From: Undibacter mobilis | GTDB lineage: Bacteria > Pseudomonadota > Alphaproteobacteria > Rhizobiales > Xanthobacteraceae | Direction: 5' to 3' | Length of the DNA: 64,000 bases | Assembly (NCBI RefSeq): GCF_003367195.1 | Contig: NZ_QRGO01000001.1 | Coordinates: forward strand, 62,001-126,000 | Part shown: positions 2,902-21,568 of the stretch, piece after piece | How positions within the stretch are numbered: the first letter of the stretch is position 1 | Layout of the letters: each line of letters starts with the position of its first letter | Translations under genes and position numbers: made by a program | Notes under the pieces: model-generated | What the model saw: the letters and a program-made list of their open reading frames with translations, nothing else | Told to the model about the DNA's origin: nothing | Databases searched by the model: none

Positions 2902-2908
2902 AAGCGCC

Positions 2909-3925: not shown

Positions 3926-4003
3926 GATATCCTCTACGAGATTGAAGTCTTGGCTGATCGGGAAGCGGTGGTGAACGGCATTCTTTTAGTTACTCATAAC
4001 GTA

Positions 4004-5470: not shown

Positions 5471-5492
5471 GATGGTATTCAACGAACAGAGG

Positions 5493-6392: not shown

Positions 6393-6769
6393 TCTTGGAA
6401 GGCGGCGCTAAGGCGCGCCAAGTCTTTTTCATCGTCCAGCCAGCAAACCAACGCCTGCTTGTCGGCGGTGAGATATGCTAGAAAGGATTCGATCTTATCG
6501 GTTTCAACCAGCATCACGAAGAAGCGGCCGGTAGAGGCGCGGACAAGAGCGGTCCGAAAGTTAAAGCTCTTGAGCCGGCCGTTCGTCGATGGAGTTGCGT
6601 AATAGCCCCAAGATTTCCGCGCGACATCATATTCCGCACCGTTTGGCGTAATGAAGGTGACCTGTTCGTTGGGTTCTAACCGTATATGGGCGCAGTCGCA
6701 CAAGACATCCTCGAGCCCCGCGCCTTTGACAGTGAAGCAGCGGGGTGGAGTTTTAGCGTCGATCTTCAT
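6389..6769 (-). CDS. Uncharacterised 126-residue protein of the glycan operon
   Basis: No family recognised. ATG at 6769 is chosen because it overlaps the amidotransferase stop as ATGA; an ATG six bases earlier is also in frame. The product is soluble with no signal peptide. It has a central stretch with RLEPNEQVTFITPNG and YDVARKSWGYYATPS, a small beta-rich pattern, and then an alternating region near FFVMLVETDKI. Overlaps on both sides (amidotransferase upstream, methyltransferase downstream) make it a genuine operon member. A dTDP-sugar-isomerase (cupin)-like or accessory role is possible, but nothing in the sequence proves it. Confidence 0.7.
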   Translation of the reverse strand: MKIDAKTPPRCFTVKGAGLEDVLCDCAHIRLEPNEQVTFITPNGAEYDVARKSWGYYATPSTNGRLKSFNFRTALVRASTGRFFVMLVETDKIESFLAYLTADKQALVCWLDDEKDLARLSAAFQE

Positions 6770-7884
6770 GTCCAAGTCCAGTCAGGCAGGATGAAATCTT
6801 TCATCTTCCAGGTGCCATCTTCCTTCGACCATATCTCCCTGTTGCGGAATTGCTCGGCGATGGAGAAGAATTCATCTTCGGAAATCTTGGTGAAGCGGCA
6901 AAATGCTTTGATATCATTAAGCGGAAGCTGGTCGCCAGTTGCACGAATGACCTCTAGAGCTGCATCGCGCGTCATCCGGCCATTGCGGATTTCGATGGAT
7001 AGATTGTCGAAGAGGCGCGTGAATCCGAACTTGTACCATTTCATCCAGTGGTGGACGGCGATGAACTCGTCATCGAGGTCGGCATAATTGTAGAAGCCAG
7101 TACGCGCGCCATCTTCTTTGATCTTCATGCCGTTCTCAACGGCAACGCGACGACTCTCTTCAGGATCCCACTTGAAGAAGTAGCCTAAGAAAATCGAGGC
7201 CGTTCCACTTTGAGTAAGCTCTTCGTCGCTAGCGCCAACATAGGGCGTCATCATCTTGGCGGTAAGGTCGGCGTCGACCCAATCGGCCGCGCTGGTTCCG
7301 TGCGAGACGCCGAATTTATTTAGCCAAGCCTTGTCGAGCTCAAATTCGGCATCGCTATCTTTCTTGCCGCCGTACTCTGTTGATGAATCCTCACCCCAGA
7401 TGATTAGCGGGATACGGAACCTGTTCGCCAGCATTCGAGAGATACTGAAGATCGCGGTATGCATCGGCGTACCGCAATTGCCAAAACGTCGGAACGATTT
7501 CAGCAGGAAAACAGCTTCGGCCTTCGGATTTATTCGGTAGTCAATATGGTCGACACCAAGGTCGATTAGATTGTCCAGGTTGTTGCGGCCCAATTCTGTA
7601 CGCAACGGCGGTGCATAGGTGAACGTCAGAGGGTTCAGGCCGTATTCCAAACACTTCACAGTCTGCCAGGTACTGTCCTTGCCGCCACTAACCGGGATAA
7701 GACAGTCATAGCCCGAGCTCCGGCGTTGCGCTTCCTCGACAATTTTTCGGAAGGTCTTTTGACGTTCCGGCCAGTCAATATGTGGTTTGTTGCGGTGATT
7801 CATACAGGCATTGCAGACGCCATCTCTTCCAATAACCAGATTTGGGCGCGTATCCGGAAGGACGCAGGAAGCACAGTATTTCAT
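6766..7884 (-). CDS. N-acetyl sugar amidotransferase (PseA/WbpG/LpxL-adjacent LegA-type family)
   Basis: ATP-dependent amidotransferase of 372 residues from the WbpG/PseA family. Seen: an N-terminal zinc-like set of cysteines (YCASC at residues 3-7 and CNAC near residue 25) and a PP-loop ATPase signature PVSGGKDST near residue 64. Later come IIWGEDSSTEYGG and LGYFFKWDP, characteristic of the family. Members convert an acetamido group on a nucleotide sugar to an acetamidino group, for example in O-antigens or on pseudaminic acid. They normally work with glutamine-amidotransferase partners (HisH/HisF-like), none of which is visible here. The asparagine-synthase-like gene 11 bp upstream could supply ammonia; that is inference. 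Confidence 0.88.
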   Translation of the reverse strand: MKYCASCVLPDTRPNLVIGRDGVCNACMNHRNKPHIDWPERQKTFRKIVEEAQRRSSGYDCLIPVSGGKDSTWQTVKCLEYGLNPLTFTYAPPLRTELGRNNLDNLIDLGVDHIDYRINPKAEAVFLLKSFRRFGNCGTPMHTAIFSISRMLANRFRIPLIIWGEDSSTEYGGKKDSDAEFELDKAWLNKFGVSHGTSAADWVDADLTAKMMTPYVGASDEELTQSGTASIFLGYFFKWDPEESRRVAVENGMKIKEDGARTGFYNYADLDDEFIAVHHWMKWYKFGFTRLFDNLSIEIRNGRMTRDAALEVIRATGDQLPLNDIKAFCRFTKISEDEFFSIAEQFRNREIWSKEDGTWKMKDFILPDWTWT

Positions 7885-7894
7885 TAGTGAAGGC

Positions 7895-9724
7895 CTAGCT
7901 GGAGAATTCTTCGAGGAAAAGCTTGGTGTTTAGGAAGTTAAACAGGAACTTGCTTTCGCTGTTTTGCAGATCGCCCTTGCTCAAGATTTCGGGCATGCGG
8001 TCGCGGCGGATCACATCGAAGACCGGGCTGTCTGCGAGGAGCTCATCTCGAACAGCGGGGTCCTGGGTGTCGAGCAGAGAAAGTATCGGCGTGTTGAAGC
8101 CGATCTTGCGTCTTTGATCGAGCACTAGATCGGGCACGATGCCACGCATAGAGTCGCGCAGCACTGCTTTGTTGAACCCATTCTGTATCAAGTGACGATT
8201 CGGAATCGAGTAGCAGAATTCGAACAAATTCCGGTCGAGATACGGCGAACGGTTCTCGATCGAAAAATACATCGCATTCAGATCGTCCTCGTGCAGAATG
8301 ACGCGAACGCCTTCGAAGAATATCTCGTTCATCATGCGGTTGCGCAGCAACGAGTCAGTATAGTGAACTTCCGCGAATTCTTCGGCAATGGGATTAGTGA
8401 GGAAATCGGCCCAGACGTGGTTGTTAAGATAGATGTGATCGCGGAATCCCCAGTTTCCAACAAAAAGGTCGGGGTTCGATAGCAATGGATTGCGGACTTC
8501 GAGTTTGACATGCTTGGTCCAGGCAGCTACGGCCGCGTCATAGCCAGGCTCGCCCTTCATCTCGGCCAAATACATCAGGTGATGGTCATAGTAGCCCGAA
8601 ACCAGTTCGTCGGCGCCGGTGCCGCTAAATGACACCTTGTAGCCGGCCTTGGCCACTTCCTGCATCAGTAGCCACTGCACATAATACGTGATCGTGTAGA
8701 TCGGCGCGTCGTGATATTTCACCAGCTCGCGCATTTCGGCCATGATGTTGCCCGGACGAAGATGCAGTGGCGTATGACGAATTCCTAGCGTGGCAACGGA
8801 AGATGCCACGATGGCACTCTCATCGTAGCGAACGTCGTCGTTCATGATGGTGAAGCCATGGACGTCGTAATTGAAGATCCGTTTGGCGATGCTGATGATC
8901 GCACTAGAATCGACGCCACCGCTCATCATAAAGGCCATAGGCACATCACTGCGCAGGCGCAAGCGGACGGCCTCAATGAGCCGCTCCCGGCAACCGTCGA
9001 CGGCCTGCTTATACGACATGTCGTCACGTGGCTGAAAGCGTGGATGCCAATACGGCCGCTGTTCGGTCTTCCCAGTCGCACCGATGAACAGGTTGTGGGA
9101 GGGCGGCAATTCGGACAGACCTTCGAAGAAGGTCTCGCCGCCCTTGTAAAGCGACTTGTAGCCATTCACCAGGAAGCGTGAAATCTGCGCCTTGTTGATC
9201 GGCAATTTCCGGCCAAGCAAGGCGAAGATAAATTTCGCCTCGGAACCGAAATAGATGCCGTCTTCGCTCTGGTGAATATAGAGTGGCTTTTCGCCGAAGC
9301 GGTCGCGCGACAGGGTGAGGCTACCGCGTACGGTGTCATAAACCGCGAGTGCCCACATGCCTTCGCACTGGTCCAGAATGTCCCAGCCTTCGCGCGCTAT
9401 AGCGGTGATCAGCACTTCCGTATCCGACTGGGTACGAAACTGTGCGCCGCCGAACTGGAGCTTCTGGCGCAGTTCTACATAGTTGTAGAGCTCGCCATTA
9501 TACACGGCGGCAAGATCGTCGACCTCGAAGGGCTGGTTCGCTCTTTCACCTATATCGATGATCGAGAGGCGGGAGTGAAGTAGATACGTCCGACGGCCGG
9601 CGGAATTGGCAAAGGACTTATAGCCGGCATGGTCGGGGCCGCGGCGCCCCATCAGGACGCGACAAGCTTCAAGCCGCTCCGGTGAGAGCGAGGCCGTTCC
9701 AAAATAACCGGCAATTCCGCACAT
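7895..9724 (-). CDS. Asparagine synthase (glutamine-hydrolysing) family protein
   Basis: Two-domain amidotransferase of 609 residues, the usual AsnB length. Seen: MCGIAGYFG at the N-terminus with Cys2 as the glutaminase nucleophile; LYNYVELRQ and SDTEVL of the class II glutaminase domain; and the ATP-pyrophosphatase loop [10 protein letters not shown] near residue 267. Later comes SFSGTGADELVSGY of the synthase domain. AsnB paralogues inside glycan clusters usually amidate a sugar acid or feed ammonia to a partner rather than make free asparagine. It is followed by the sugar amidotransferase in the same direction. Confidence 0.92.
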   Translation of the reverse strand: MCGIAGYFGTASLSPERLEACRVLMGRRGPDHAGYKSFANSAGRRTYLLHSRLSIIDIGERANQPFEVDDLAAVYNGELYNYVELRQKLQFGGAQFRTQSDTEVLITAIAREGWDILDQCEGMWALAVYDTVRGSLTLSRDRFGEKPLYIHQSEDGIYFGSEAKFIFALLGRKLPINKAQISRFLVNGYKSLYKGGETFFEGLSELPPSHNLFIGATGKTEQRPYWHPRFQPRDDMSYKQAVDGCRERLIEAVRLRLRSDVPMAFMMSGGVDSSAIISIAKRIFNYDVHGFTIMNDDVRYDESAIVASSVATLGIRHTPLHLRPGNIMAEMRELVKYHDAPIYTITYYVQWLLMQEVAKAGYKVSFSGTGADELVSGYYDHHLMYLAEMKGEPGYDAAVAAWTKHVKLEVRNPLLSNPDLFVGNWGFRDHIYLNNHVWADFLTNPIAEEFAEVHYTDSLLRNRMMNEIFFEGVRVILHEDDLNAMYFSIENRSPYLDRNLFEFCYSIPNRHLIQNGFNKAVLRDSMRGIVPDLVLDQRRKIGFNTPILSLLDTQDPAVRDELLADSPVFDVIRRDRMPEILSKGDLQNSESKFLFNFLNTKLFLEEFSS

Positions 9725-9759
9725 TTTCTGAATTTAGTCGTTTCGTGTTTTGGTCGGCA

Positions 9760-10707
9760 TTACGCCGGTATGGTCCGCAGTATCGCGGGTGGCGGGTTAC
9801 AGAGATGGGCAACCATTGCTTCCAATCCGCGATCAAGGTCGTAGGTCGGTTCCCAATTGAGCAGCTGTTTGGCATGCGCGATGGAAATCTGCCGGCGGGC
9901 GCCTTCGTTGGGATCGGGGTCGCCGCTGAATTTGATGCTGGCGTCGGCATTGCCCACCGCCTTTATGACGGACTGGGCCAGTTGGGCCATCGTGACCGGC
10001 CCCGGGCCGGCGATGTTGCATATACCAGACGCCTCGAACGTAACGGCGCTGAAGCAGGCGCGAGCAATATCACCGACATAGGTAAAGACCTGCTCGCGCT
10101 TGCCGCTGCCCTGCAGTTCGAGCGCTTCGCCGGCGAAAGCGCGTTGCACGAAAGTCGGGATCACAGCCTTGATGTTAAAGGCGGCACCGTAAGGCGCGCT
10201 GATCCGAAGGCCAATAAAGCGCGTCTTCGACGACCGGCCGAACATCTTTGCCGCTTCCTCGCAAGCAAGCTTGGAAAGCATATAGGAATCCGTCGGCGTC
10301 GCGATCATTGATTCTTCGATCTGAATCGTCGCGGAGCCGTACAGATTGGCTGTCGATATATAAACGAATTGGCGGACATCGTTGCACACGGCCATCTGCA
10401 TCAAATTGTAGCTGCCCAGGCTGTTGAGATCGTACAGCTGCCGGGCTCCCGCGCTCGTTCGCAGCAAGCCGCCTGATGGCAGTAAAGCGGCACAATGCAC
10501 CACGGCGGTTACTTTCCGCATCGCCGCTTCAAGGGCAGTATTTTCCGCCACGGCGGAAAGATCGAAAGGAATGACCTCGACAGCATCGTCGCAGGTCTCC
10601 ACACGCCCGCTGCAAGCAACGATGGCGCGCCAGCCCCGCATCCGGAAATAGCGCAGTACCTCGCTTCCGACCATCCCTCTTCCACCGGTAAGAAGAAGCG
10701 TGTTCAT
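9760..10707 (-). CDS. NAD(P)-dependent epimerase/reductase
   Basis: SDR enzyme of 315 residues. Seen: LLTGGRGMVGSEV at residues 5-17 as the nucleotide-binding loop, FVYISTANLYG near residue 112 and a YMLSK active-site motif near residue 143. The C-terminal part has the pattern of nucleotide-sugar epimerases (QVFTYVGDIARAC). Its ATG overlaps the stop of the DegT aminotransferase as ATGA. Together the pair could make an amino sugar through a keto intermediate. The substrate is unknown. Confidence 0.83.
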   Translation of the reverse strand: MNTLLLTGGRGMVGSEVLRYFRMRGWRAIVACSGRVETCDDAVEVIPFDLSAVAENTALEAAMRKVTAVVHCAALLPSGGLLRTSAGARQLYDLNSLGSYNLMQMAVCNDVRQFVYISTANLYGSATIQIEESMIATPTDSYMLSKLACEEAAKMFGRSSKTRFIGLRISAPYGAAFNIKAVIPTFVQRAFAGEALELQGSGKREQVFTYVGDIARACFSAVTFEASGICNIAGPGPVTMAQLAQSVIKAVGNADASIKFSGDPDPNEGARRQISIAHAKQLLNWEPTYDLDRGLEAMVAHLCNPPPAILRTIPA

Positions 10708-11843
10708 GCGTGGCGCGCCAGACCGGCCACGCAGTCGTACAGCGTGTGGGCAATGTCAGTCGCGCCCTGTTCGTCGATATAGGAATGCGTTGGCAGATTG
10801 ATGAGGCGCCCTACCACGCTTTCGGCCACAGGCAGCGACACGGCATTCTCGGCCTGGTGGGCATATAAGGGTTGCTGATGGCAAAGCGGCTCATACATCC
10901 ACGTCACGCGCGCATTGATCTGGTCGAGCAGCACCCGCTGGACCGTTTGGCGGTCTATGCCTTTGTCCAGAAGAATCGCGTAGCGCCAGTAGCTGTGCTC
11001 GTCATGTGGCACGGGATCCACCAAGTACATGTAAGGCGCATTGTGCAGAATATTGCGGTAGACAGCGGCGATGCGGCGTCGGTGCGCCACGATCTCTGCA
11101 AGTCGCCGCTGCTGAACCACACCGATGGCGGCCGGTATTTCAGCTAGGCGGAAATTGTTGCCGGCATAGTCGAAAACGCTTCCGCCGGTTTGTCGGCCAT
11201 GATCGCGGATGCGGCGCACCTGCTCGGCCAAACGGTCATCGCTGGTGGTAATTACGCCGCCTTCGCCAGTTGTGAGCACTTTCGTCGCGTAGTAGCTGAA
11301 ACAGCCGATCTGGCCCAGGCTGCCGGCGGGACGGCCGCAGAAGCTGGCGCCATGTGCATGCGCTGCATCCTCGATCAGCACCAGGCCTTCCTTGCGGCAA
11401 TAGTCCTGGATGGCCGCAATCTCGGACGACATCAGGCCAAACATATGCACGATGATGACAGCGGCGGTATTCGGTGTCTTCACCGCGGCAATGGTGCTTT
11501 CACTAATGGCAAGATCGTTCAGCCGCAGATCAGCGAAGATGGGGCGGCCGCCGGCGCGAACCACTGAATTCGCCGTGGCGACGAAGGTCTCTGTTGGGAC
11601 GATGACGTCCTTGCCCTTCACATTCACCGCTTCCAAGGCGATCTCTAGCGCAGTACCTCCGGAATTCACGCCTAGGGCATAGCGTGTGCCGGCCATTTCG
11701 GCAGCTGCGGCCTCAAATCGCTTCAGGTACGGACCCTGGGTCATGCTGCCGCTAACGAGGATATCCTCGACCGCGGCCATGATTTCAGCGCGATCCTCAT
11801 CCGGGAAATACGGTTGCGCTCCCGAGTAGCTGCGCGTTGCCAT
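10704..11843 (-). CDS. DegT/DnrJ/EryC1 sugar aminotransferase
   Basis: PLP-dependent aminotransferase of 379 residues. ATG at 11843 is preferred because it overlaps the WbqC stop as TGATG; the frame stays open 60 bases further upstream. Seen: SGGTALEIAL near residue 61 (cofactor phosphate binding), LIEDAAHAHGA near 156 and YYATKVLTTGEGG with the PLP lysine at about residue 188. Family members transaminate keto sugars of nucleotide-linked hexoses. It is one of two DegT enzymes in the cluster, so at least two amino groups are likely in the final glycan, or one enzyme may serve a separate sugar. Confidence 0.9.
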   Translation of the reverse strand: MATRSYSGAQPYFPDEDRAEIMAAVEDILVSGSMTQGPYLKRFEAAAAEMAGTRYALGVNSGGTALEIALEAVNVKGKDVIVPTETFVATANSVVRAGGRPIFADLRLNDLAISESTIAAVKTPNTAAVIIVHMFGLMSSEIAAIQDYCRKEGLVLIEDAAHAHGASFCGRPAGSLGQIGCFSYYATKVLTTGEGGVITTSDDRLAEQVRRIRDHGRQTGGSVFDYAGNNFRLAEIPAAIGVVQQRRLAEIVAHRRRIAAVYRNILHNAPYMYLVDPVPHDEHSYWRYAILLDKGIDRQTVQRVLLDQINARVTWMYEPLCHQQPLYAHQAENAVSLPVAESVVGRLINLPTHSYIDEQGATDIAHTLYDCVAGLARHA

Positions 11844-12562
11844 CAGGATGCCCCTTGGGTCATGGCACATGTCGCAGAAAATGGCGGGCGTCCGGGGCCG
11901 CAATTCAGCAGGTAATCTAGAGCGCTGAGCATCGGCTCGAAAGCGCCATGCAGTTGGGGATAGGTAAATTTTGAATATGACAGAAAGGTCAGACGGATGC
12001 CTTCCTGCTCAAACTCACTCGGGGGGTGATAGGCTTCCGTACCAGGCTTCACGATGAAATGCGTGCCATCGAGCATGCGACAAATCTTGATCAGTTTGCC
12101 GTTGCGACTTCCCTCGGCTGCGAGATCGCTGGACAGATGGAAAGGCGTGCTTATGCAGAACGCCTCGCGCATTATGTGAATCAGCGGCAGGACGATCTCC
12201 ATGAGCCGTTCGCAGGGGCGCGAATACAGATCAGCAAGCTGGTCGCGATACTGCGGCCAGAAAGCGGCGCGACTATATGCCTGTTCGATGGCGCGCCAGT
12301 GCTTCACGCGCCACCTGACGGCATTGTTCACCTGGATGTCGCAAATTAAGGTCTTCGAGTTTCCGCTGTAAAGTACGGGGACAGTCAACAGTTGCCTGCC
12401 TTGGGCCGTCTTGACCGAGTTGCGATTAAAGAAGTTGTTCTTCGAATATTCCACGTCGTCCAGCAGCACGAAGGCATCCGAAGCGGCCATCCGCTCAAAG
12501 AATGGCATCCAGGGCAGATAGGTCGGTTGCACGGCGCCGATGATGCGCGGGGCGGATTTCAC
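11843..12562 (-). CDS. WbqC family protein
   Basis: Member of the WbqC-like family, 239 residues, often found in O-antigen and capsule clusters. Seen: an early QPTYLPW motif at residues 12-18, FVLLDDVEYSKNNFFNRN with conserved acidic and asparagine residues, and a C-terminal FLSYSKFTYPQLHG. The biochemical role of the family is not firmly known to me; an acyl or amino-acid transfer role has been suggested by context. It overlaps the upstream methyltransferase by four bases and the downstream aminotransferase by one, which places it firmly in the operon. Confidence 0.85.
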   Translation of the reverse strand: MKSAPRIIGAVQPTYLPWMPFFERMAASDAFVLLDDVEYSKNNFFNRNSVKTAQGRQLLTVPVLYSGNSKTLICDIQVNNAVRWRVKHWRAIEQAYSRAAFWPQYRDQLADLYSRPCERLMEIVLPLIHIMREAFCISTPFHLSSDLAAEGSRNGKLIKICRMLDGTHFIVKPGTEAYHPPSEFEQEGIRLTFLSYSKFTYPQLHGAFEPMLSALDYLLNCGPGRPPFSATCAMTQGAS

Positions 12563-13461
12563 CGGCTGGCCTCTTTCGCGCCGAGAATCATCGTGAAAGC
12601 GCGGCCGACGCCGCAGCCAGCATAGGCGCGGCTCAAGGTCAGATAGGCATCCATACCGCTTTCCGCACAGATCAGGCTCATAATCATGCGCGCTTTATGA
12701 GCATCGGGTCCTGCGCAACGCTGACGCACGTAGTTTGACCCGGGATGGAACAGATAGGCCTCGATTGGAAAATCGGCGAAAGTATCAAGCACCGCGAGGC
12801 CGCGGCTGGCGGCGAGCGCAGCAGCGGCGGCGATGGTGAAGTAGTGCAGATGCTGCGGAGGGCTGAACCAGTATTCGGTTTCTATTGCGCCGGTGTCCAT
12901 CGCCACCTGCTGGACTCTGCTGTAGTCATTCGGAAGAGTGATGAGGAGGCGCCCGCTGGGTGTGAGCAGCTGACGAAGCCTATCGAGCAGGCCACGAGGG
13001 TCAATGACGTGTTCAAGCACATTCTGCAGCACGCAGGCATCGAAACGACGCCCGGATTCCATCATATTATCTAGCAGCGCGAAGGCATCGCCGATTTCAA
13101 TCGTCTTGCGCAATTCAGGGTGGAAGCGTTCGATCGCATGGGCGCTGAAATCGATACCGCTGACATCCAGGTTTTGCCGTGCGGCCTCGGCCAGCAGGAA
13201 GCCCTCGCCGCAGCCAACGTCAAGCAGCGTGCCCGCCCTTTCGCCCGATTGGTCGATCGCGTGCAACATCAGGCGCGCCTGCATACGCTTGTAGTCGAGT
13301 TCGAGGTCGGAATAGGCTTGCTGGTAAGAGGCAGATGCGGATTGCTGGTAATACTGCTGAGCATAAAAAGCCTGCAGCTCAGGAAGGCTTGGCAGAGGAA
13401 AAACGGATACAAATCCCTCCTCCTGCCGAACCTTAGTCCATGATGCCGTGATGCTGGTCAT
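12559..13461 (-). CDS. Class I SAM-dependent methyltransferase
   Basis: Methyltransferase of 300 residues. Seen: LLDVGCGEGFLLAEA (motif I) near residue 98, GIDFSAHAIERF after it, and VLQNVLEHVIDPRG with LLITLPN as the later motifs of the Methyltransf_23 group. An N-terminal segment of about 90 residues is rich in Tyr and Gln around residues 33-50 (QYYQQSASASYQQAY), which may be a flexible linker. It probably methylates a sugar in this glycan. It lies between the oxidoreductase (4 bp away) and wbqC (overlap). Confidence 0.83.
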   Translation of the reverse strand: MTSITASWTKVRQEEGFVSVFPLPSLPELQAFYAQQYYQQSASASYQQAYSDLELDYKRMQARLMLHAIDQSGERAGTLLDVGCGEGFLLAEAARQNLDVSGIDFSAHAIERFHPELRKTIEIGDAFALLDNMMESGRRFDACVLQNVLEHVIDPRGLLDRLRQLLTPSGRLLITLPNDYSRVQQVAMDTGAIETEYWFSPPQHLHYFTIAAAAALAASRGLAVLDTFADFPIEAYLFHPGSNYVRQRCAGPDAHKARMIMSLICAESGMDAYLTLSRAYAGCGVGRAFTMILGAKEASR

Positions 13462-13465
13462 GCGG

Positions 13466-14473
13466 TCAGATCAGCTTTCGCGGCTTGACGAACTGGCCAC
13501 TGGCGCGCGACTCCTGCGCGGCGAGGCAGATTTCCATCACCTGGAAGACTTCAGCAACGGTAACCTTCATTGGCGCGCCGGTGCGAATCGCCTGGACGAA
13601 ATCGGGAAGTAGGTCACCCTTTTCCACGGCAGGATATGGGGCGGTCATTGGCTGCCGGCCGGCGGGATCCTCGCCAGTATACCAATCGGCGTCGCCCAAG
13701 GCATTTACGAAGCTTGCTTTCGTTCCAAACACGCGCAAGGCATGGAATTTCGGATGCTGCGGCACCAACGTCACCAAGACCTTAGCCAGGCTGCCGTCGG
13801 CGAACCGCATCAAGATGACGTCGGTATCGTCGAATCGATAACCCGTTGGCGCCGTGGTTTTCTGGCTGCCCATGGCGCAGACCTCGACGACCTCACTCTT
13901 ATTCAGCCAGGTAATCAGGTCGATCAAGTGAATCCCGCCACCGAAGATGGGCGAATAGAAAGAGATATTGGCGCGCCAGCCATTGACGATCTTGTACTCA
14001 ATCTGATGTATGTAATCGCCCTCAAGATAGAAGAGTTCACCCATTTCGCCTGCATCGATACGTTGCTTCAAGACTCGGAAGCGCGGGCTGCTGCGCAGGA
14101 TCAGGTTCGAGGTGATCAGTCGGTTGCTGTCTTTATAAGCCGCGAAAATGGCATCAGCCTGATCCTTGGTAATGGCCAGCGGCTTTTCAACCATTACATG
14201 CTGTCCGTGACGCAGCGCCGAGACGGTCTGCTCGGCGTGATCATCATCGAACGTGCAGATCGAAACGACATCAATAGATGTATCTTCGGTGATGCGGCGG
14301 TAGTCGGTGTATCGGGTGGCAACGCTATTTCGGTCAGCAACGACTTTCAGCTTCTCTTCATCGACATCGCAGATCGCAACCACTTCGCAGCCCGGAATCT
14401 TAGCGTAGGAAAGAACATGCTGCTCACCGACGCCAAGGCCGATAACGGCAGCCCTAATTCGCTGATGTGACAT
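13466..14473 (-). CDS. Gfo/Idh/MocA family oxidoreductase
   Basis: NAD(P)-dependent sugar oxidoreductase of 335 residues. Seen: VIGLGVGEQH at residues 10-19 as the Rossmann loop, the family motif EKPLAITK near residue 95, and a C-terminal beta domain with GGGIHLIDL. Members oxidise or reduce ring hydroxyls of nucleotide sugars, for example the 3-keto step used before a DegT transaminase. Its position 17 bp after the NeuB-like gene and the presence of two DegT enzymes fit such a coupled oxidation/transamination. The exact substrate is not known. Confidence 0.87.
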   Translation of the reverse strand: MSHQRIRAAVIGLGVGEQHVLSYAKIPGCEVVAICDVDEEKLKVVADRNSVATRYTDYRRITEDTSIDVVSICTFDDDHAEQTVSALRHGQHVMVEKPLAITKDQADAIFAAYKDSNRLITSNLILRSSPRFRVLKQRIDAGEMGELFYLEGDYIHQIEYKIVNGWRANISFYSPIFGGGIHLIDLITWLNKSEVVEVCAMGSQKTTAPTGYRFDDTDVILMRFADGSLAKVLVTLVPQHPKFHALRVFGTKASFVNALGDADWYTGEDPAGRQPMTAPYPAVEKGDLLPDFVQAIRTGAPMKVTVAEVFQVMEICLAAQESRASGQFVKPRKLI

Positions 14474-14489
14474 ACGCGATCTATGTGGG

Positions 14490-15512
14490 TCAATTACCGG
14501 CCGGCGCCACGCCGGCGGCGGGAATCAATTCGCCTTGGTGCAGCGAGACTATCAACTGGCGCCCGACCAAGCCGTCAACGTCGGACCAATTGAATTCGGT
14601 GGCTGGTCTCGCATAGGCCATATCGCCGGCGGCGAGAACAGTGCCCGCGGGAAGGTCCCGGGCGGCGACCACACCCTTTCGCATTAACGGGCGCAACGCG
14701 ACCTCGCTGGGCAGGACCGGGCGTCCATATTGCCCGCATGCGGCGCGCACTGCACGGATGCCGGTGATCAGCTTCCGCATTTCTTCCGGCTCGAAGGACA
14801 GCGAGTGATCGTGGAACGTGCGACCGGCGCGTCGGTCGGTGAAATGGACCTCGATGACCTGCGCACCTAGTGCGGTGGCGGCGATCACAGCCTCAGGCTC
14901 GACGGCATGGTTGGAATAGCCGGTCGGCAAGCCGTAGCGCTCTTTGAGGAACGGAATGCTGAGCAGGTTCAAGTCGTGCATGGGAGCGGGATAGGAGGCC
15001 ACGCAATGCAGCAGCACCAGCCGGTCGGACAGATTCTGCTGCCCAGAGGCGTCGCGGCACCAGGACAGGGCAGTGTCGATTTCGTCCAGGGTACTGTTTC
15101 CGGTCGACAGGATCACCGCTTTGCCGGTCCTCATCGCGGCTTCCAGGACGGGACGAAAATTTAAATCGCCGCTGGCGATCTTTACCGCGGGGCCAAGGGT
15201 GGCGACGAAGTCCACGACGTCTTCGGTCACTGCGGTGGAAAACAGGCTCACGCCGAGTTCGGCCGCTTCGTCCCGAAGGCGCAGATGGTCCTGACGCGAC
15301 AGTGCAAAGCGGGTCACGCGCTCGAAGCGCTGCTGATTCGAAGTCGTGACGAAGCGGGACGGAGTGTAGGTCTGCAGCTTAACGGCGTCGGCGCCGGCTT
15401 CCGCCGCGAGGCGCAACAGAGTTGAGGCGGATTCGACGCTGCCTTCGTGATTAACACCGATCTCAGCAATCACGGCCACATCGTTATCGAGATATCTCCC
15501 AAATAGATTCAT
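14490..15512 (-). CDS. neuB: N-acetylneuraminate/nonulosonate synthase-like protein with SAF domain
   Basis: NeuB-family synthase of 340 residues. ATG at 15512 gives the canonical start MNLFGRYL; the longer frame to 15602 would overlap the cytidylyltransferase. Seen: VIAEIGVNHEGS at residues 13-24, KIASGDLN near residue 111, LHCVASYPAP and GYSNHA further on, EVHFTDRR, and a C-terminal SAF (antifreeze-like) region with RKGVVAARDLPAGTVL. NeuB enzymes condense phosphoenolpyruvate with an amino-hexose to make sialic, legionaminic or pseudaminic acid. Paralogues using other sugars occur in O-antigen clusters, so the exact acid is open. Confidence 0.88.
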   Translation of the reverse strand: MNLFGRYLDNDVAVIAEIGVNHEGSVESASTLLRLAAEAGADAVKLQTYTPSRFVTTSNQQRFERVTRFALSRQDHLRLRDEAAELGVSLFSTAVTEDVVDFVATLGPAVKIASGDLNFRPVLEAAMRTGKAVILSTGNSTLDEIDTALSWCRDASGQQNLSDRLVLLHCVASYPAPMHDLNLLSIPFLKERYGLPTGYSNHAVEPEAVIAATALGAQVIEVHFTDRRAGRTFHDHSLSFEPEEMRKLITGIRAVRAACGQYGRPVLPSEVALRPLMRKGVVAARDLPAGTVLAAGDMAYARPATEFNWSDVDGLVGRQLIVSLHQGELIPAAGVAPAGN

Positions 15513-15528
15513 GGCTGCGTCCTCCCCG

Positions 15529-16215
15529 TCACCGGTGATTAGCTTGCAGAAGCTGCAACACGTCGTCGAGGCTGTATTCGGTATGCGGCCGCTCCATGGC
15601 ATTCAGAATGGCATGAAATTCCGCCAGATCCTCGGGCGTGTCGACGGAAAGCTGGATGTCACTCGCGTCGCGGCCGTACGAAAAATTCCGGATTCGGAAA
15701 CGGTCCGGGTGATCGTAGAAGAACATCGCCACGTGTTCGCGATAGGCGACGCTATCGGTTTGAGCCGCAACCGCCTGCAGAGCCGAAACGGAAATTACCT
15801 CAACGCCCTGCCCTTTCGGATATGAACGGGGAAAGGCATTGCTGACCAGATCGACCGGTGCGGCTTCATATTCCGCAATGCCGCGGTCGATAAGACGATG
15901 GTCAAGCAGCGGGCTGTCGCCGTTTATGCGGACGAAAGCGCTCGCCTGTATCCGCGTCGCCGCATCGATGAAGCGGCCCATGACATCGTCAAGCGGGCCC
16001 CGTAGGACGCGTATTCCCTCCGCTTCGCCGAATGCCGCCAGAGCGTCATCCTCACGATCCGTCGAGGTGACGAGATTGACGCTGTCGGCATTCTTGCAGT
16101 AGCGCAAGCGTTCGATCAAATATGCGATCAGTGGCTTGCCTCGGGCTACTTGCAGGACCTTGCCCGGCAGCCGTTTGGACGACATGCGGGCCTGTATGAA
16201 AACCGGAAGCGCCAC
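15529..16215 (-). CDS. Cytidylyltransferase, SpsF/NeuA-like
   Basis: Nucleotidyltransferase of 228 residues with an SpsF-type N-terminus. Seen: FIQARMSSKRLPGKVL at residues 6-21, the nucleotide-binding motif, and FVRINGDSPLL with the metal-binding acidic residue near 94-104. SpsF/NeuA-like proteins activate a nonulosonate or related acid as a CMP sugar. The gene is 16 bp upstream of the NeuB-like synthase, so product activation right after synthesis is likely. The sequence is closer to SpsF-like proteins than to classic NeuA, which leaves the accepted sugar uncertain. Confidence 0.82.
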   Translation of the reverse strand: MALPVFIQARMSSKRLPGKVLQVARGKPLIAYLIERLRYCKNADSVNLVTSTDREDDALAAFGEAEGIRVLRGPLDDVMGRFIDAATRIQASAFVRINGDSPLLDHRLIDRGIAEYEAAPVDLVSNAFPRSYPKGQGVEVISVSALQAVAAQTDSVAYREHVAMFFYDHPDRFRIRNFSYGRDASDIQLSVDTPEDLAEFHAILNAMERPHTEYSLDDVLQLLQANHR

Positions 16216-16224
16216 AGTCCGAGT

Positions 16225-17286
16225 TCAGGCCACTTTGAAGAGATCGGGGTGCTTTTTGGCCAGCGTCTTATACCATTTGATGTACTCGACGAAGCCCTTT
16301 TCCAGCGGATAGGCCGGCTCATAACCGATGAGCTTGCGCGCCTTTTCGACCGAAAGCGTACCACGTTCCGGCATCAAGGCGTCTCGCGGATTGTGCCTCA
16401 CTTCGACGCCAGGGAATTCGGCACGCATGATGTCGACCATCTGGTTTAGCGTGCGGGCGCTGCCATAGGTTAGGTTGAATATCTGATTATGGGCGGCCGG
16501 ATGAGCAATGCAAAGTAGCAGACCTTGCACCAAGTCACCAATATAGGTGAAATCCAGCCCGTCGGTGCCGTCGCCATTAATGGTCAGCGGCTGACCACGC
16601 AGGGCGTTCTCGATGAAAGCTTGGCCAACGCGGCGGCTGACGCATCGCTGGCCATACAGAGCAGAAGGGCGCACAATCGTGTACGGAAGGTTGAAGACTT
16701 GATTGTAGGCCATCACGAGCCGCTCGCCGCCGTATTTCAGGGCGCCATAGATGCCCACCGGTTCGCAGCGACGGTCTTCCTGCACGGCGTCGCCGTCGAA
16801 ATTTCCGTAGGCCATAGACGACGAGAAATAGATAAAGCGTGAGACATTCAGCCCCTCTCCGCGGGAGAAATCGAGGGCATTCTCCAATGTGCGGAAGCTG
16901 TGGTCGAAGGTGCTGAACGGATCCTTGTTCGATCGGTTGGCATGCGCGATGGCCGCCAGCTGCACCACCACCCCGGGACGGATATCGCTGAGCGTCCGGG
17001 TCAGCAGATGATAGTCTCGGCAATCCACTACATGTAGCGGCACACGGTTTTCATTCAGCAACCGGATACGTTCGTTGATCAGATGCAGATACAATGTCTT
17101 GTTTGGGTCGCCGACAGTATTGGAGAAGGCGCCGAGGTTGTTGACTTGCAGGCTGTCGATCACATGGACATCGGCCTTGAGCTCGCGCAGGCGAAGGGCC
17201 AAATTGTGCCCAATGAAGCCAGCGCCGCCGATCAAGGCGACCCGTTTGCCAGCGAGGGTGGAAAGATAATCGGTCACGAGCGGCAC
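16225..17286 (-). CDS. NAD-dependent nucleotide-sugar epimerase/dehydratase
   Basis: Extended SDR enzyme of 353 residues. Seen: LIGGAGFIGHNLA at residues 18-30, IYFSSSMAYG near residue 147, and YGALKYGGERL with the Tyr-x3-Lys pair. The C-terminus carries the substrate domain with LDFTYIGDLVQG. It may be the epimerase or 4,6-dehydratase for the activated hexose that feeds the DegT aminotransferase. Its start overlaps the aminotransferase end by 13 bp, so it is translated from the same messenger. Confidence 0.87.
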   Translation of the reverse strand: MPLVTDYLSTLAGKRVALIGGAGFIGHNLALRLRELKADVHVIDSLQVNNLGAFSNTVGDPNKTLYLHLINERIRLLNENRVPLHVVDCRDYHLLTRTLSDIRPGVVVQLAAIAHANRSNKDPFSTFDHSFRTLENALDFSRGEGLNVSRFIYFSSSMAYGNFDGDAVQEDRRCEPVGIYGALKYGGERLVMAYNQVFNLPYTIVRPSALYGQRCVSRRVGQAFIENALRGQPLTINGDGTDGLDFTYIGDLVQGLLLCIAHPAAHNQIFNLTYGSARTLNQMVDIMRAEFPGVEVRHNPRDALMPERGTLSVEKARKLIGYEPAYPLEKGFVEYIKWYKTLAKKHPDLFKVA

Positions 17287-18419
17287 TCCAGGATGGCGGC
17301 CTTGACGGCTTGAGCGACGGTCTTCATGTCGTCGGGATTGAGATGCGGTCCAACAGGAAGAGCAATGGACTGCTGGCTAATACGCAAGGCATTGGGGAAG
17401 GCCTCCGGCACATTGGCAAGATCGTTTTTGTACAGCGCGGTCAGCGGTACCGGTACCGGATAGTAAATGGAGGTGCCGACGCCCTTGCCGTTGATCGAAC
17501 CAATTATCTCGCGGCGCTTAGACGCGATGCGGTCAGCAAGCACGATAGCCAAGCAATAGTGGCTGCCCTTCCGGACGGCATCGCCGTCTGAAGCGAGGAT
17601 GCGAAGCTCAGCGACATCGACCAAGGCAGCCTTCAGGGCGGCGTAATTTTGCGCGCGCTGCTCGAGAAAACGCGGCAACTTTTTCATCTGCTCAACACCA
17701 ATGGCGCAGGCGATTTCCGACAGCCGGTAATTGTAGCCGAGCAGGTTAACATCGTAGTGGCCCGGCACGGTCCGTTCGCCAACCTGCTTATCGTAGCCGA
17801 AGGATTTTAGCTTCTCGATGCGGCTTATGATGTCTTGATGGCGGCTTACGAACATACCGCCTTCGGACGTCGTGATGTGCTTGACGGGATAGAAGGAGAA
17901 GCAGCCGGCATCGCCAATCAAGCCGGTATGGACGCCGTTATAGGTCGCGCCCAGTGACAGGGCGGCATCTTCCACCACGAACAGATTGCGACTGCGGGCG
18001 AGTTCCATAATCGGGGCCATGTCAACCGGCAGGCCGAGATAATGCACGACGCTGATCGCCTTGGTGCGCGGCGTTAGAACCTTGGCGATGCGGGCAGCGC
18101 TGATATTACCGGTCTCGGGATCGCAGTCGACGAAAACCGGCGTGGCGCCGGTATGGGCCACCACATGCGCCGTAGCGACGTGGGTCTGTGCCGGCACGAT
18201 CACTTCGTCGCCGGGGACGATGCCGAGATGTACGTAGGCAAGATGAAGGCCGGTGGTGCAGGAGCTGACGCTGGTGGCATGGCCGCCGGTATAGCTTCCG
18301 AAATCGGCTTCGAATTGCTTGGCAGCGGGGCCATGCACCAACTGTGGTCCAGCCATTACCTTGAGAACGGCGGCGCGCTCCGCCTCGCCCAGGATCGGAC
18401 GGCCGAATGGAATTTTCAT
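17274..18419 (-). CDS. DegT/DnrJ/EryC1 sugar aminotransferase
   Basis: PLP-dependent aminotransferase of 381 residues, with ATG at 18419 giving MKIPFGRPIL; an upstream in-frame start at 18440 lacks a better context. Seen: SCTTGLHLAY near residue 53, VVEDAALSLGA near 148 and FYPVKHITTSEGG with the PLP lysine at about residue 180. It has the family size and all expected motifs. It is the first gene after the 200-bp gap that follows the radical SAM gene, and it could start its own transcript or be read through from upstream. Confidence 0.9.
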   Translation of the reverse strand: MKIPFGRPILGEAERAAVLKVMAGPQLVHGPAAKQFEADFGSYTGGHATSVSSCTTGLHLAYVHLGIVPGDEVIVPAQTHVATAHVVAHTGATPVFVDCDPETGNISAARIAKVLTPRTKAISVVHYLGLPVDMAPIMELARSRNLFVVEDAALSLGATYNGVHTGLIGDAGCFSFYPVKHITTSEGGMFVSRHQDIISRIEKLKSFGYDKQVGERTVPGHYDVNLLGYNYRLSEIACAIGVEQMKKLPRFLEQRAQNYAALKAALVDVAELRILASDGDAVRKGSHYCLAIVLADRIASKRREIIGSINGKGVGTSIYYPVPVPLTALYKNDLANVPEAFPNALRISQQSIALPVGPHLNPDDMKTVAQAVKAAILECRS

Positions 18420-18439
18420 TGCGGGAGAAGACGGAGCCA

Positions 18440-18640
18440 CGGTGTCACCAATCTATGAAATGCAAGAATCCGGATACGGTTTTCCTTTCGCGACCGGAGC
18501 TGCGCAGAAAACTGTATGGATTGTTTGATGTCCGTCGCCGCTTACGGTGGTGACGGAGTTCTGGACGTATACGGCAGTGCCACCTGTCTATACCGGGCCA
18601 CTACAGCGAAGGGTATCGCCTGGGCCGTCAGGCTAGTTTT
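18440..18640 (-). other. Intergenic gap within the glycan cluster
   Basis: About 200 bases without a coding frame I can support. The only structure noticed is a pair of imperfect arms, TCCGTC near 18531 and GACGGA near 18552, around CCGCTTACGG, which could fold as a hairpin in the transcript. No T-run follows on the minus strand, so it is not a convincing terminator. A promoter for the downstream genes cannot be excluded. Confidence 0.35.
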
Positions 18641-20197
18641 TTAGACGGCGCCAGTCACTACGGCCATGTTCAGGGACTCGTTCGACAGGCGATTGCGCAT
18701 CACAAGCATCTCTTTATCGAGATGCTCATTGTGCTTTGCGTAGCCACCGGTCTTGATAAGTTCCTCTTCCTTGAGAAGATTACCGAACTTGCTATTGAGA
18801 TGGCTAAGCGAATTTTTCACCAGACCGAGCAACTCGTCGTCTTTCATCGAGGTCATGTTCAGAACCAGATCCTGACGCTCGGTCATTTCCACGAGATAAC
18901 GGTCAATGTCGGTAATGAAACCGTTCTCGAGCGCATGCGTCCACATTCCGGTGGCGGGCAAGGGCAGCAGGAAACCGACTGACGGGTAAATGCGGTTTTG
19001 TTCGCACATATCCATCGTTTTCTTGATCGTCTCCGGCGTTTCCTGCGGATAGCCGATCACGAGGCTGGTGTCGGCCACGAGACCCACCTGGCGCAAAATG
19101 CGAACCTGCTCATTGAAGAAGCTCGACTTCACACGCTTGTTCATCGCTTCGAGAATCTCGTCGTCGCCGGACTCCAGCGAGAAACCGAGCGCTATTGCGC
19201 CGGCTTCCTTGAACTTGTTGGCGACCCGCACACGGTCTTCGAGCGGCAGATCATCGCGGCCCAGAAGGTCCGAACGCACCGCGCAGTTGAAGTGAATATT
19301 GAGGTCGGCGGCGATTACTTCGTCGAGGAACTTCTCTGTCGGCCCGATCTTGTGGAACGAAAGCTCATCCCAGAATTCGATATAGTTGGCGCCGTATTTC
19401 TGCTGGTTGCGGCGGATCTCGCCGATCACCGATTGCGCCGAGCGGTGGCGATAGGGGTCGTTCCAGAACACGTAATGGCAGAACGTGCATTTGAAAACGC
19501 AGCCGCGCGCGGTGTTGACCGGAAACACGACCGCCTTTTCCTTCGGAAAGCGGGTCGTGTGGCGCGCCAGATAATGGCTCGCGTCGATGTATTTCTGGAC
19601 GTCAAACAGATCCCAATCCGGGAACGCCAGCGTGTTGATGTCTTTCACCGCCTTGCGCGGACCATTGTTCAACAGCCGGCCATTCGGGCCGCGGAACATG
19701 ATGCCTTCGACGCCTGTAGATTTGAACGTCGGCGGCAAATCGCCGTTGGTATGCGGCACCGGCGTCGGCGGCTCGACCATCTCGCCGATCGATTTGCCGT
19801 CGCGCAGATGCTCCAGCAATTCGACGATCGTGACGTCGGCCTCGCCCTTGATGATGATGTCGGCCTTGGTGTGGGCGAAGATCACTTCCGAGATCGACCC
19901 GCCGACCGAATTGCCAACGATCACCTTGCATTCAGGCTGATAAGACTTGGTGAGGTTGATGAACCATTTGACCCACTTGTAGTGGGTCACGATCGAACCA
20001 ATGCAGACCACATCGTAGTGATGCGTTTGCATGTATTTTTCGACGTAAGCATCGTCGTAACGCGCGATATCGACGTCCAGGAGATCGAACTTGAACCCGC
20101 CGTCCCGCACGGCCGTGACGACATAGCCCAGACCGACCGGGATATATCGGTGCGGAGCGCCGGGACGAAGGCTCGGATTGACGAAAAGGATTCTCAT
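18641..20197 (-). CDS. B12-binding-domain radical SAM enzyme
   Basis: Radical SAM protein of 518 residues. Seen: an N-terminal cobalamin-binding-type Rossmann region (MRILFVNPSLRPG, later VVCIGSIVTHYKWV and IIIKGEADVTIVELL) and the cluster motif Cys233-x3-Cys237-x2-Cys240 in ARGCVFKCTFCHY. The classic DxHxxG cobalamin ligand is not obvious, so cobalamin may bind base-off without that His. Class B enzymes of this type methylate unactivated carbons or rearrange substrates. It is the first biosynthetic gene after the leader with the ops-like element. Its role in the glycan is unknown; C-methylation of a sugar or modification of a lipid carrier are options. Confidence 0.87.
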   Translation of the reverse strand: MRILFVNPSLRPGAPHRYIPVGLGYVVTAVRDGGFKFDLLDVDIARYDDAYVEKYMQTHHYDVVCIGSIVTHYKWVKWFINLTKSYQPECKVIVGNSVGGSISEVIFAHTKADIIIKGEADVTIVELLEHLRDGKSIGEMVEPPTPVPHTNGDLPPTFKSTGVEGIMFRGPNGRLLNNGPRKAVKDINTLAFPDWDLFDVQKYIDASHYLARHTTRFPKEKAVVFPVNTARGCVFKCTFCHYVFWNDPYRHRSAQSVIGEIRRNQQKYGANYIEFWDELSFHKIGPTEKFLDEVIAADLNIHFNCAVRSDLLGRDDLPLEDRVRVANKFKEAGAIALGFSLESGDDEILEAMNKRVKSSFFNEQVRILRQVGLVADTSLVIGYPQETPETIKKTMDMCEQNRIYPSVGFLLPLPATGMWTHALENGFITDIDRYLVEMTERQDLVLNMTSMKDDELLGLVKNSLSHLNSKFGNLLKEEELIKTGGYAKHNEHLDKEMLVMRNRLSNESLNMAVVTGAV

Positions 20198-20350
20198 TTA
20201 TTTTCCCAGATCGTGATTTGCTGGCGTCGGGTCAGACAAATATCTCTAATTCCTAGCGTTTTCCGCCCAGCCTCGCAATCCGCGTTCCAAGGCGGCGCCG
20301 GCCAAAAGACGTCTACCAGCGGTATCGATAGCATCTTTTGCAGGGCTTTT

Positions 20351-20363
20351 CGCAAGCTACCGC
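20351..20363 (-). promoter_or_regulatory. ops-like element (RfaH recruitment site)
   Basis: Minus-strand sequence GCGGTAGCTTGC (20363 to 20352). The E. coli ops site is GGCGGTAGCGTGC, so this matches 11 of 12 positions starting from the second G; the one mismatch is at a non-conserved base. It sits 84 bases after the stop of the RfaH-like gene and about 154 before the radical SAM start. Known: RfaH binds the non-template strand of ops in a paused complex. That this alphaproteobacterial paralogue uses the same signal is inference. Confidence 0.5.
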
Positions 20364-20387
20364 ACTTCGGGGTGAAAACCCCAAAGT
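20364..20387 (-). promoter_or_regulatory. 10-bp hairpin just before the ops-like element
   Basis: On the minus strand the arms ACTTTGGGGT and ACCCCGAAGT pair over ten positions (one G-U) around the loop TTTC. No T-run follows, so it is not a standard terminator. Its place directly before the ops-like site suggests a pause- or antitermination-related structure. Confidence 0.5.
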
Positions 20388-20447: not shown

Positions 20448-20948
20448 TTATGCGGCCTCGATGGCCTCCGCCGGAACCTGCAGGCGCACCTTTCGCCCCA
20501 GCAAGGACACCAGCAGAATGACGCGACTCTCATCGCGGATGTCCTGAAAGAGCCCCTCGATATTCACCATCGGACCTTCGGTGACGCGCACGGCCTGCCC
20601 GCGAACGAAGGTCGCGGCAGCCAAATCAATCACGCCGGATTCATCTTCACGCGCCTTGATCTCCGCGACGATCTTTTCGTCGAGGTAGCGCGGCCGCTCG
20701 CCGTCGCTCAGGATCTGGCGGACGCCAACCGTTCCGTTGATGCTGCGCCACCGGCTGACCTCGGGGTCGAACAACACGAACAGATAGCCCGGGAAGAGCG
20801 GCCGGGTGACGACGCTGGTGCGCCCGGCATGGCGGATGCGCCGCCGGTAGACCGGCAAATAGGTCTCGAACCCCTGATTGACGAGGTGCCGCTTGGCCTT
20901 CACCTCACAGTGAGGCTGCGTCTGGACGACAAACCAGTTGCCCTGCAT
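20448..20948 (-). CDS. RfaH/NusG-type transcription antitermination factor
   Basis: NusG-family protein of 166 residues, close to E. coli RfaH (162). Seen: an NGN domain starting NWFVVQTQPHCEVKAKRHL, the PLFPGYLFVLFDPEV segment near residue 52 that is very similar to RfaH, and a C-terminal KOW-like region with VRVTEGPMVNIEGLF. ATG at 20948 overlaps the stop of the upstream gene as TGATG. Specialised NusG paralogues bind RNA polymerase and suppress pausing or termination in long polysaccharide operons. The gene leads directly into the 20-kb glycan transcript, so it probably controls it. Confidence 0.85.
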   Translation of the reverse strand: MQGNWFVVQTQPHCEVKAKRHLVNQGFETYLPVYRRRIRHAGRTSVVTRPLFPGYLFVLFDPEVSRWRSINGTVGVRQILSDGERPRYLDEKIVAEIKAREDESGVIDLAAATFVRGQAVRVTEGPMVNIEGLFQDIRDESRVILLVSLLGRKVRLQVPAEAIEAA

Positions 20949-21568
20949 CACGGCTTATCCACGCTTGACGGAAACGAAACACGCAGAAACGGCGGCACCA
21001 GAATTCTTTGAGGACCGATCGCCGCGATCAGCCAGTCACAGGTCGCCTGCGGCTGACGGCCGTCGGTGATAACCACGACTTCGTCCGGCTGCAAATTCGC
21101 CAGCGAGCGCAACACCGGAAGGCCAGCGACCTGCCCCTGGTTGGTCTCATGGTCGAGTACGCCGACAATGTCGATACCGAGCCCGTTAACCGCGAGCGTG
21201 GCGATCTCGGCGAGTTCGCCGGCGCCGCACAGCACGACGCGCTTGTGGCCGGCGACCGCACAGCGCTCGAAGATGTCGTGATATTCCTGCCGTGCCGCCC
21301 GGAAGAAAGTCAGCGAATAATCGAGATACTCGGCGACCAGCTTGCTCTTTTCGGCAAAGCCCTTCGGCGTCAGGTAATAGGCATAGCGCTTGGTCGGCGC
21401 TTCCTTTACCTTGATCAGACCTTTGCGCACCGCCCGGTGCACAAGCGCGTTAACCAGACCGACTGAAATGCCAATCTTGCGCGCCAGCGCACGCTGATTC
21501 GGCGCGTCCTGGCCGGCCACGTTGTCAAGCAATTGAACGGTCTCAGCGAGATTACCGTCGCGGGGCAT
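20948..21568 (-). CDS. Winged-helix regulator with Rossmann-like C-terminal domain
   Basis: Protein of 206 residues with two parts. Residues 1-75 look like a MarR/winged-helix DNA-binding domain (NQRALARKIGISVGLVNALVHRAVRKGLI). The C-terminal part has VVLCGAGELAEIATLAVN, a glycine-rich Rossmann loop like those of CoA-binding or PglD-type N-terminal domains, which could sense a nucleotide sugar or cofactor. It is the first gene of the minus-strand transcript and overlaps the RfaH-like gene. Inverted repeats upstream may be its operator. Function inferred from architecture only. Confidence 0.78.
   Translation of the reverse strand: MPRDGNLAETVQLLDNVAGQDAPNQRALARKIGISVGLVNALVHRAVRKGLIKVKEAPTKRYAYYLTPKGFAEKSKLVAEYLDYSLTFFRAARQEYHDIFERCAVAGHKRVVLCGAGELAEIATLAVNGLGIDIVGVLDHETNQGQVAGLPVLRSLANLQPDEVVVITDGRQPQATCDWLIAAIGPQRILVPPFLRVSFPSSVDKP

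Follow-up and report, generated by a model that had tools for sequence, protein, structure and literature searches.

An RfaH-like gene, a hairpin, an ops-like motif and a long run of glycan genes follow one another on the minus strand of the DNA studied here, and this order raises a question: does a system equivalent to RfaH and ops operate in an alphaproteobacterium? The sequence-only reading of the window (the whole 64,000-nucleotide stretch of Undibacter mobilis DNA that was analyzed) had proposed as much. We find that hairpin and motif recur together, and we put at about 0.8 the probability that this two-part element is an ops-type loading site, acting mainly in cis, for the RfaH-like protein encoded upstream of it.

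The site and its neighbors

The minus-strand series begins with a gene for a 206-residue MarR_EPS-like regulator (20948..21568), which matches MarR_2 and scores 55.6 bits against TIGR04176 (cut-off, 88). The protein consists of a winged helix and an extra C-terminal part of ~100 residues with weak Rossmann-type or NeuD/PglB similarity (PglD_N at an E-value of only 0.05). Its stop codon overlaps the start of the RfaH-like gene (20448..20948) by one base (TGATG). The ATG at 20948 is the coding start of this NusG paralogue, a protein of 166 residues (M-Q-G-N-W...) that matches Pfam NusG (E = 4e-19). Next come the hairpin (20364..20387), the ops core (20352..20363) and the remaining leader (20198..20351), which extends to the first gene of the glycan run, a B12-binding radical SAM enzyme by its profile matches (18641..20197). 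The collinear genes that follow (990..18440) encode mostly sugar and glycan enzymes: aminotransferases, epimerases/dehydratases, a NeuB-like synthase, a cytidylyltransferase and methyltransferases, along with WbqC-like, asparagine synthase, SIS, HAD and transaldolase-like genes; two of the ORFs have no Pfam match. Minus-strand collinear genes thus extend from 20197 to about 990, a 19-kb run. Profile matches and collinearity bear out the earlier claim that the motif lies between an RfaH/NusG paralogue and a glycan gene run. Nonulosonate-like sugar genes (aminotransferase, dehydratase, cytidylyltransferase, NeuB-like synthase and oxidoreductase) occupy 13466–18440 of the minus strand, and a tRNA-Met gene is found at 26056–26132 on the same strand.

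On the minus strand, the site reads ...ACTTTGGGGTTTTCACCCCGAAGT|GCGGTAGCTTGC..., with the hairpin (20387–20364) abutting the core (20363–20352). The hairpin, identified by its sequence, its folding energy and covariation among related elements, spans 24 nt and has 10 base pairs, one of them G-U, and a UUUC loop; it folds at −14.4 kcal/mol, and a 28-nt stretch gives −15.2 kcal/mol (z = −4.3). The core GCGGTAGCTTGC, assigned to ops positions 2–13 by sequence match, begins 84 nt after the stop codon of the RfaH-like gene and is identical to the E. coli core GCGGTAGCGTGC (from the K-12 waaQ leader) at 11 of 12 bases. Both this match and the 10-bp stem-loop right before it had been claimed, and both are present in the sequence. 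Relative to the E. coli ops (G1–G12), position 1 is T instead of G and position 10 is T instead of G; positions 2–9, on the non-template strand of the leader, are identical, and the T11–G12 pause dinucleotide is present. As predicted from the E. coli ops, the pause would occur at U11 (base 20354; G12 is 20353). The last base of the hairpin's 3′ arm is ops position 1, which puts it 11 nt short of the 3′ end expected for the paused RNA (with that nucleotide counted as −1). The structure does not have the form of an intrinsic terminator: the stem is followed by GCGGTAGC instead of a U-tract, and a terminator scan lists nothing there.

How much weight can the motif itself bear? The earlier estimate of about 0.3 chance matches in 64 kb on both strands was correct (37 patterns × 128,000 / 4^12 = 0.28). 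With up to two mismatches to GCGGTAGCNTGC allowed, the window contains 29 matches where 35 are expected, and we therefore rejected the motif by itself as evidence. The support for the site comes instead from conservation. When a covariance model of the element was run on the organism's own genome, it returned one good element (E = 7e-8); the next best match had an E-value of 0.018.

Conservation and distribution of the element

We searched 40 relatives and 297 genomes of the order for RfaH-like proteins and examined the DNA 3′ of each gene. This search gave 75 RfaH-like genes with a complete stop codon, 15 in the genus and 60 in the order; a gene cut at a contig end and the second RfaH-like copy of one genome were left out of the count. 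Exact GCGGTAGC occurs within 300 nt 3′ of the gene, on the same strand, in 43 of the 75 (9/15 in the genus, 34/60 in the order). The controls were nearly empty: the motif was found in 1/75 cases in the same region of the opposite strand, 0/75 in the 300 nt upstream on either strand, 1/75 in the 600 nt upstream on the opposite strand, 0/75 inside the gene, and 0/73 and 0/71 further downstream. The core lies a median of 72 nt from the stop codon (range 48–245), and within 125 nt in 36 of 43 cases. For the remaining 32 genes, the exact core is missing from this 300-nt stretch; for some of them an element elsewhere or a core with one mismatch was found, and for others none was.

A hairpin accompanies these cores. 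Across the 43 elements, the mean folding energy is −13.9 kcal/mol for the 36 nt before the core, compared with −6.6 for the 36 nt after it; the mean folding z is −2.7, with 33 of the 43 below −1.5. As a weak control, we took 32 other occurrences of GCGGTAGC without CACC nearby, of which a few are probably real divergent elements and one is an E. coli JUMPstart; there, upstream folding averages −8.4 kcal/mol, significantly less than in the elements (p = 5e-7). The base of the stem is 0–4 nt from the core in 39 of the 43 elements, but a stem ending within 4 nt of the motif is also present in 19 of the 32 control occurrences, so the distance from stem to core does not by itself tell elements from controls. 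Because the elements were picked by the exact core, its invariance in the 43, and its identity in the first 15 aligned elements, are a matter of selection.

Two of the checks that the sequence-only reading had suggested were the leaders of related clusters and the DNA 3′ of other NusG-paralogue genes, and both speak for it: motif and hairpin are kept in the genus, the order, the class and one family outside the class, and the motif recurs 3′ of the paralogue genes at the rate given above, against 0–1 of 71–75 in the controls. Absence from close relatives, which the sequence-only reading had named as grounds for refutation, is thus not what the genomes show. The hairpin and ops signal recurs in many putatively alphaproteobacterial genomes, the label of the relatives being based on organism names at 15 of 19 loci.

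Two covariance models (R2, a trimmed seed of six elements, and R3, built from 46 elements of the genus and the order) were used to search more widely. Over the 297 order genomes, R2 found the element at E ≤ 1e-3 in 25, two of which had supplied seed sequences; all 25 carry the RfaH-like gene, which occurs in 59 of the 297 overall (p = 2e-20). Over 385 genomes of the class, R3 found the element at the same threshold in 56, and 52 of these carry the gene, which was detected at E ≤ 1e-13 in 88 of the 385. With the organism's own genome removed, the class table is 51/4/36/293 (Fisher p = 6e-35). Searches over more than 40 genomes ran with stricter filters, and their counts are probably low. Four class genomes have an element at E ≤ 1e-3 although the gene was not detected in them; it may lie on contigs that are missing or have diverged, or the matches may be false.

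The gene-bearing class genomes contain 55 elements. Thirty lie within 300 nt 3′ of the gene on the same strand, eight farther 3′ on that strand, three divergently upstream, three elsewhere on the same contig and 11 on another contig. In Aliiruegeria, Martelella and HTCC2255, the element is on the opposite strand 319–340 nt upstream of the gene. Another 44 loci comprised the 29 strongest new matches in the class and 15 named loci. The exact core is downstream in 9/44 of them; the corresponding controls gave 0/44 on the opposite strand, 2/44 upstream on the same strand, 1/44 upstream on the opposite strand, 4/44 at 1 kb upstream on the opposite strand, and 0/43 and 0/43 in two others. This signal is weaker than that in the order; a probable reason is that the element of many class genomes lies elsewhere. 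In a phylum sample of 249 genomes, the element was found outside the class at E ≤ 1e-3 in five genomes of a single family, and at three of these loci an RfaH-like gene on the same strand precedes it by 60–270 nt; the other two loci lack it, as do the loci of two further matches in the phylum sample. Judged from these matches, the element system extends wider than the Alphaproteobacteria. Three genomes have two RfaH-like genes each, every one with a nearby core or model match; it is possible that these are specificity pairs.

What do the elements away from an RfaH-like gene precede? After each of 14 such elements (13 loci, one with a second site), we took the largest ORF that begins in the next 700 nt and translated it. 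Ten match sugar-pathway or related families, namely UDP-glucose dehydrogenase (3), GDP-mannose dehydratase/epimerase (3), DegT aminotransferase, UDP-GlcNAc 2-epimerase, glycosyltransferase and asparagine synthase, and four have no Pfam match; not all of these loci are independent, as two are near copies in two genomes and one of that pair shares its genome with a third. The non-adjacent elements thus mostly precede sugar genes. This placement bears on the idea that the element is a site of RNA processing or stability, either a ribonuclease site or a 3′-end protector, that splits the rfaH-like message from the glycan message. A position between two cistrons, 48–245 nt after a stop codon, would suit such a role. 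The same element, however, precedes sugar genes far from any RfaH-like gene and sits upstream of the gene on the opposite strand in Aliiruegeria, Martelella and HTCC2255, and a processing site would leave the conserved ops core unexplained. We regard this explanation as extremely unlikely.

A hairpin that probably acts as RNA

For covariation analysis, 48 presumed element loci were supplied, and 44 of them gave the 46 matches (E ≤ 0.0025) that make up the alignment. The other four loci gave no match, and two near copies (palindromes also match the other strand) and six weaker, doubtful or unmatched loci had been left out, so pair counts lean towards good elements; the alignment was, moreover, fitted to the structure and so leans in its favor. 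An earlier model, R1, built from a MAFFT alignment, had been dropped: the loops differ in length, which misaligned the hairpin, and only two pairs resulted. In the 46-element alignment, 88% of the cells are paired. Changes on both sides occur in seven of nine pairs, amounting to 34 cells where shuffled alignments gave 8.9 (0 of 500 reached 34) and slid registers gave three to nine.

The two arms behave differently. The 3′ arm, TCACCC, is kept (T in 39, C in 40, A in 37, C in 40, C in 39 and C in 38 of 43 elements), and the 5′ arm varies. The same 3′ arm recurs in many elements of the class while the 5′ arm varies, a pattern that pairing alone does not explain. When stems were scored by Watson-Crick pairs only, so that G-U and A-C had equal standing (82/83 elements), G-U combinations outnumbered A-C combinations by 29 to 10 (p = 0.003). 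This excess fits folding of the RNA from this strand, not a DNA palindrome. The conserved hairpin therefore probably acts as RNA.

An inverted repeat beside a regulator gene might nonetheless be a DNA operator, for example for the MarR_EPS-like regulator, with GCGGTAGC as part of the site. MarR-family proteins bind palindromes, and a MarR_EPS-like relative is found just upstream of the RfaH-like gene at 24 of the 75 loci: 20 of the 43 that have the element alongside, but only 4 of the 32 that do not. Yet 23 of the 43 element loci have no detected MarR_EPS-like gene in that position. The bias towards G-U, the retention of one arm's sequence while the other covaries, the variable loop length and the asymmetric GCGGTAGC, which keeps to one side and one strand, are likewise at odds with an operator. 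We consider it very unlikely.

The RfaH-like protein and a putative loading site

Does the protein encoded upstream resemble RfaH closely enough to read such an element? By its profiles, it is of the RfaH/NusG kind, with NGN and KOW domains and about the same length as E. coli RfaH, which is its best PDB relative by sequence. It nevertheless falls below the model cut-offs for the RfaH equivalog (TIGR01955, 128.5 vs. 144.5 bits), LoaP (NF033641, 60.4 vs. 125 bits) and UpxY (NF033644, 76.4 vs. 100 bits), and these tests place it outside the RfaH equivalog. In an AlphaFold2 model (pLDDT 91), the C-terminal domain is predicted to be a beta-barrel, and Foldseek ranks E. coli RfaH on RNA polymerase second and third among the matches to the model; a beta-barrel is also predicted (pLDDT 85) for a homologue from another genome whose elements lie kilobases away.

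E. coli RfaH contacts ops bases through K10, H20, R23 and R73, and alanine changes at K10 or R73 compromise its recruitment (PMC5995543). The window protein has Q, H, N and V at these positions. Of the 43 proteins whose gene has an element beside it, 5 carry K at position 10, 19 carry H and 19 carry N at position 20, 30 have R at position 23, and 4 have R at position 73; Q24 (43/43), T72 (41/43) and G74 (43/43) are kept. The window protein shares F51, Y54, Q24, T72, G74 and R138 with E. coli RfaH. It is not predicted to have the E48–R138 pair and alpha-helical C-terminal domain of autoinhibited RfaH: position 48 is R here and E in only 2 of the 43, and R138 is kept in 42. The proposal that an RfaH/ops-equivalent system operates here is thus upheld as to conservation and the tie to an RfaH-like gene, but most of the E. 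coli ops-contact and autoinhibition residues are gone. As K10 and R73 are mostly replaced, E. coli recognition cannot simply be copied. The DNA core is kept and two of its four reading residues mostly are not, which suggests either that other residues read the core or that the hairpin shares the work.

Might the hairpin do all of the work, loading the protein by RNA recognition as in LoaP, with GCGGTAGC merely a pause sequence? The loss of K10 and R73, the retention of each TCACCC base in 37–40 of 43 elements and the recurrence of this arm across the class are compatible with that, and LoaP itself binds an RNA hairpin with the assistance of a downstream pause (PMC12691694). In the dfn leader of Bacillus as described there, a NusG paralogue, an RNA hairpin and a pause come together much as they do here, though the available text of that report mentions no ops element. 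In contrast to the UNCG-type hairpin of LoaP, the loops and 5′ arms of the present elements are not conserved, and the protein scores far below the LoaP cut-off. Furthermore, the core is kept at G4, G5, A7 and G8, which E. coli RfaH needs for recruitment and not for pausing (PMC5995543). A hairpin acting alone is thus unlikely.

Several observations do count against an ops-type site. Among them are the 32 RfaH-like genes with no exact core nearby, the low downstream count at the 44 other loci, the replaced K10 and R73, and the four class genomes in which no gene was detected. At five loci, the hairpin occurs with a core altered at T6, a base that E. coli RfaH reads. In addition, the pause dinucleotide is not universal: T11 is present in 28 of the 43 elements, and G12, which is required for the E. 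coli pause at U11, in only 22, with T at position 12 in 19. By its geometry, the element resembles a class I, his-type pause: the hairpin base would trail the predicted 3′ end of the RNA by ~11 nt, near the spacing of his-type pauses, and a hairpin at that spot could add an extra hold to the pause. The E. coli ops pause, by comparison, belongs to class II and is distinct from hisPEC (PMC5995543, PMC11001881).

Under the ops-type reading that we favor, RNA polymerase transcribing the MarR_EPS-like and RfaH-like genes would meet the ops core 84 nt past the stop codon. The hairpin would then fold in the RNA exit region, its base ~11 nt behind the 3′ end at U11; hairpin and T11–G12 pause signal would jointly halt the polymerase. 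The RfaH-like protein, largely protein freshly made from the same transcript, would read the exposed non-template GCGGTAGC, and the loaded polymerase, presumably insulated from NusG and Rho and so resistant to termination, would go on to copy the 19-kb glycan run. With the core within 125 nt of the stop codon in most elements, the polymerase would wait there while the ribosome finishes the protein, which would favor loading in cis. Loading in trans is probable too, since in other genomes the element also stands before distant glycan operons.

The closest known counterpart is JUMPstart/ops (RF01707; E. coli waaQ), in which a hairpin and then GGCGGTAGCGTG also precede a long glycan operon. In the waaQ leader, the stem is followed by 13 unpaired positions, a single base and then the 12 of ops; here, too, a stem-loop is followed at once by ops. 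The models, however, miss each other's sites at the thresholds used. RF01707 exceeded its gathering cut-off (35 bits) in 0 of the 40 relatives and had no match at E ≤ 10 to the elements of 15 loci, where no other Rfam model matched at the element either, and R2, searched at E ≤ 1, missed the waaQ site of E. coli. In the 249-genome sample, RF01707 passes its cut-off in six genomes, all of the same phylum and none of the same class. Compared with JUMPstart, the present element has a longer, covariation-supported stem and a TCACCC 3′ arm, and it often lies just 3′ of an rfaH-like gene; unlike that of E. coli RfaH, the gene here adjoins its likely target. On sequence grounds, the element is a variant of the JUMPstart/ops plan, with a stronger hairpin, other protein residues and a placement often beside the rfaH-like gene, and the comparative evidence suggests that it works like ops/RfaH.

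The JUMPstart stem-loop was assigned to Gammaproteobacteria by Weinberg et al. (PMC2864571), and 18% of rfaH genes have been placed in Alphaproteobacteria (PMC7593976). Among the titles and abstract starts listed in our searches, which mostly exclude subscription journals and so prove no absence, there was no report of ops or JUMPstart elements in Alphaproteobacteria. The element is a concrete, searchable candidate. It is also relevant to the sequence of steps proposed for RfaH evolution, in which ops interaction and autoinhibition are both described as "late" (PMC7593976). A 2026 preprint proposes that non-autoinhibited RfaH homologues are recruited in cis, without ops (PMC13015549); in contrast to that account, proteins without E48, two of which were modeled and predicted to have the beta domain, still accompany an ops-type element here. 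More tentatively, and at somewhat less than even odds, the element may form a composite code in which an RNA hairpin (with its conserved TCACCC strand) and a non-template ops hairpin together recruit a NusG paralogue, in cis from protein newly made on the same transcript and without the RfaH fold switch. If so, the LoaP and RfaH modes would be joined in one element, and ops recognition would be older than autoinhibition and the K10/R73 contacts.
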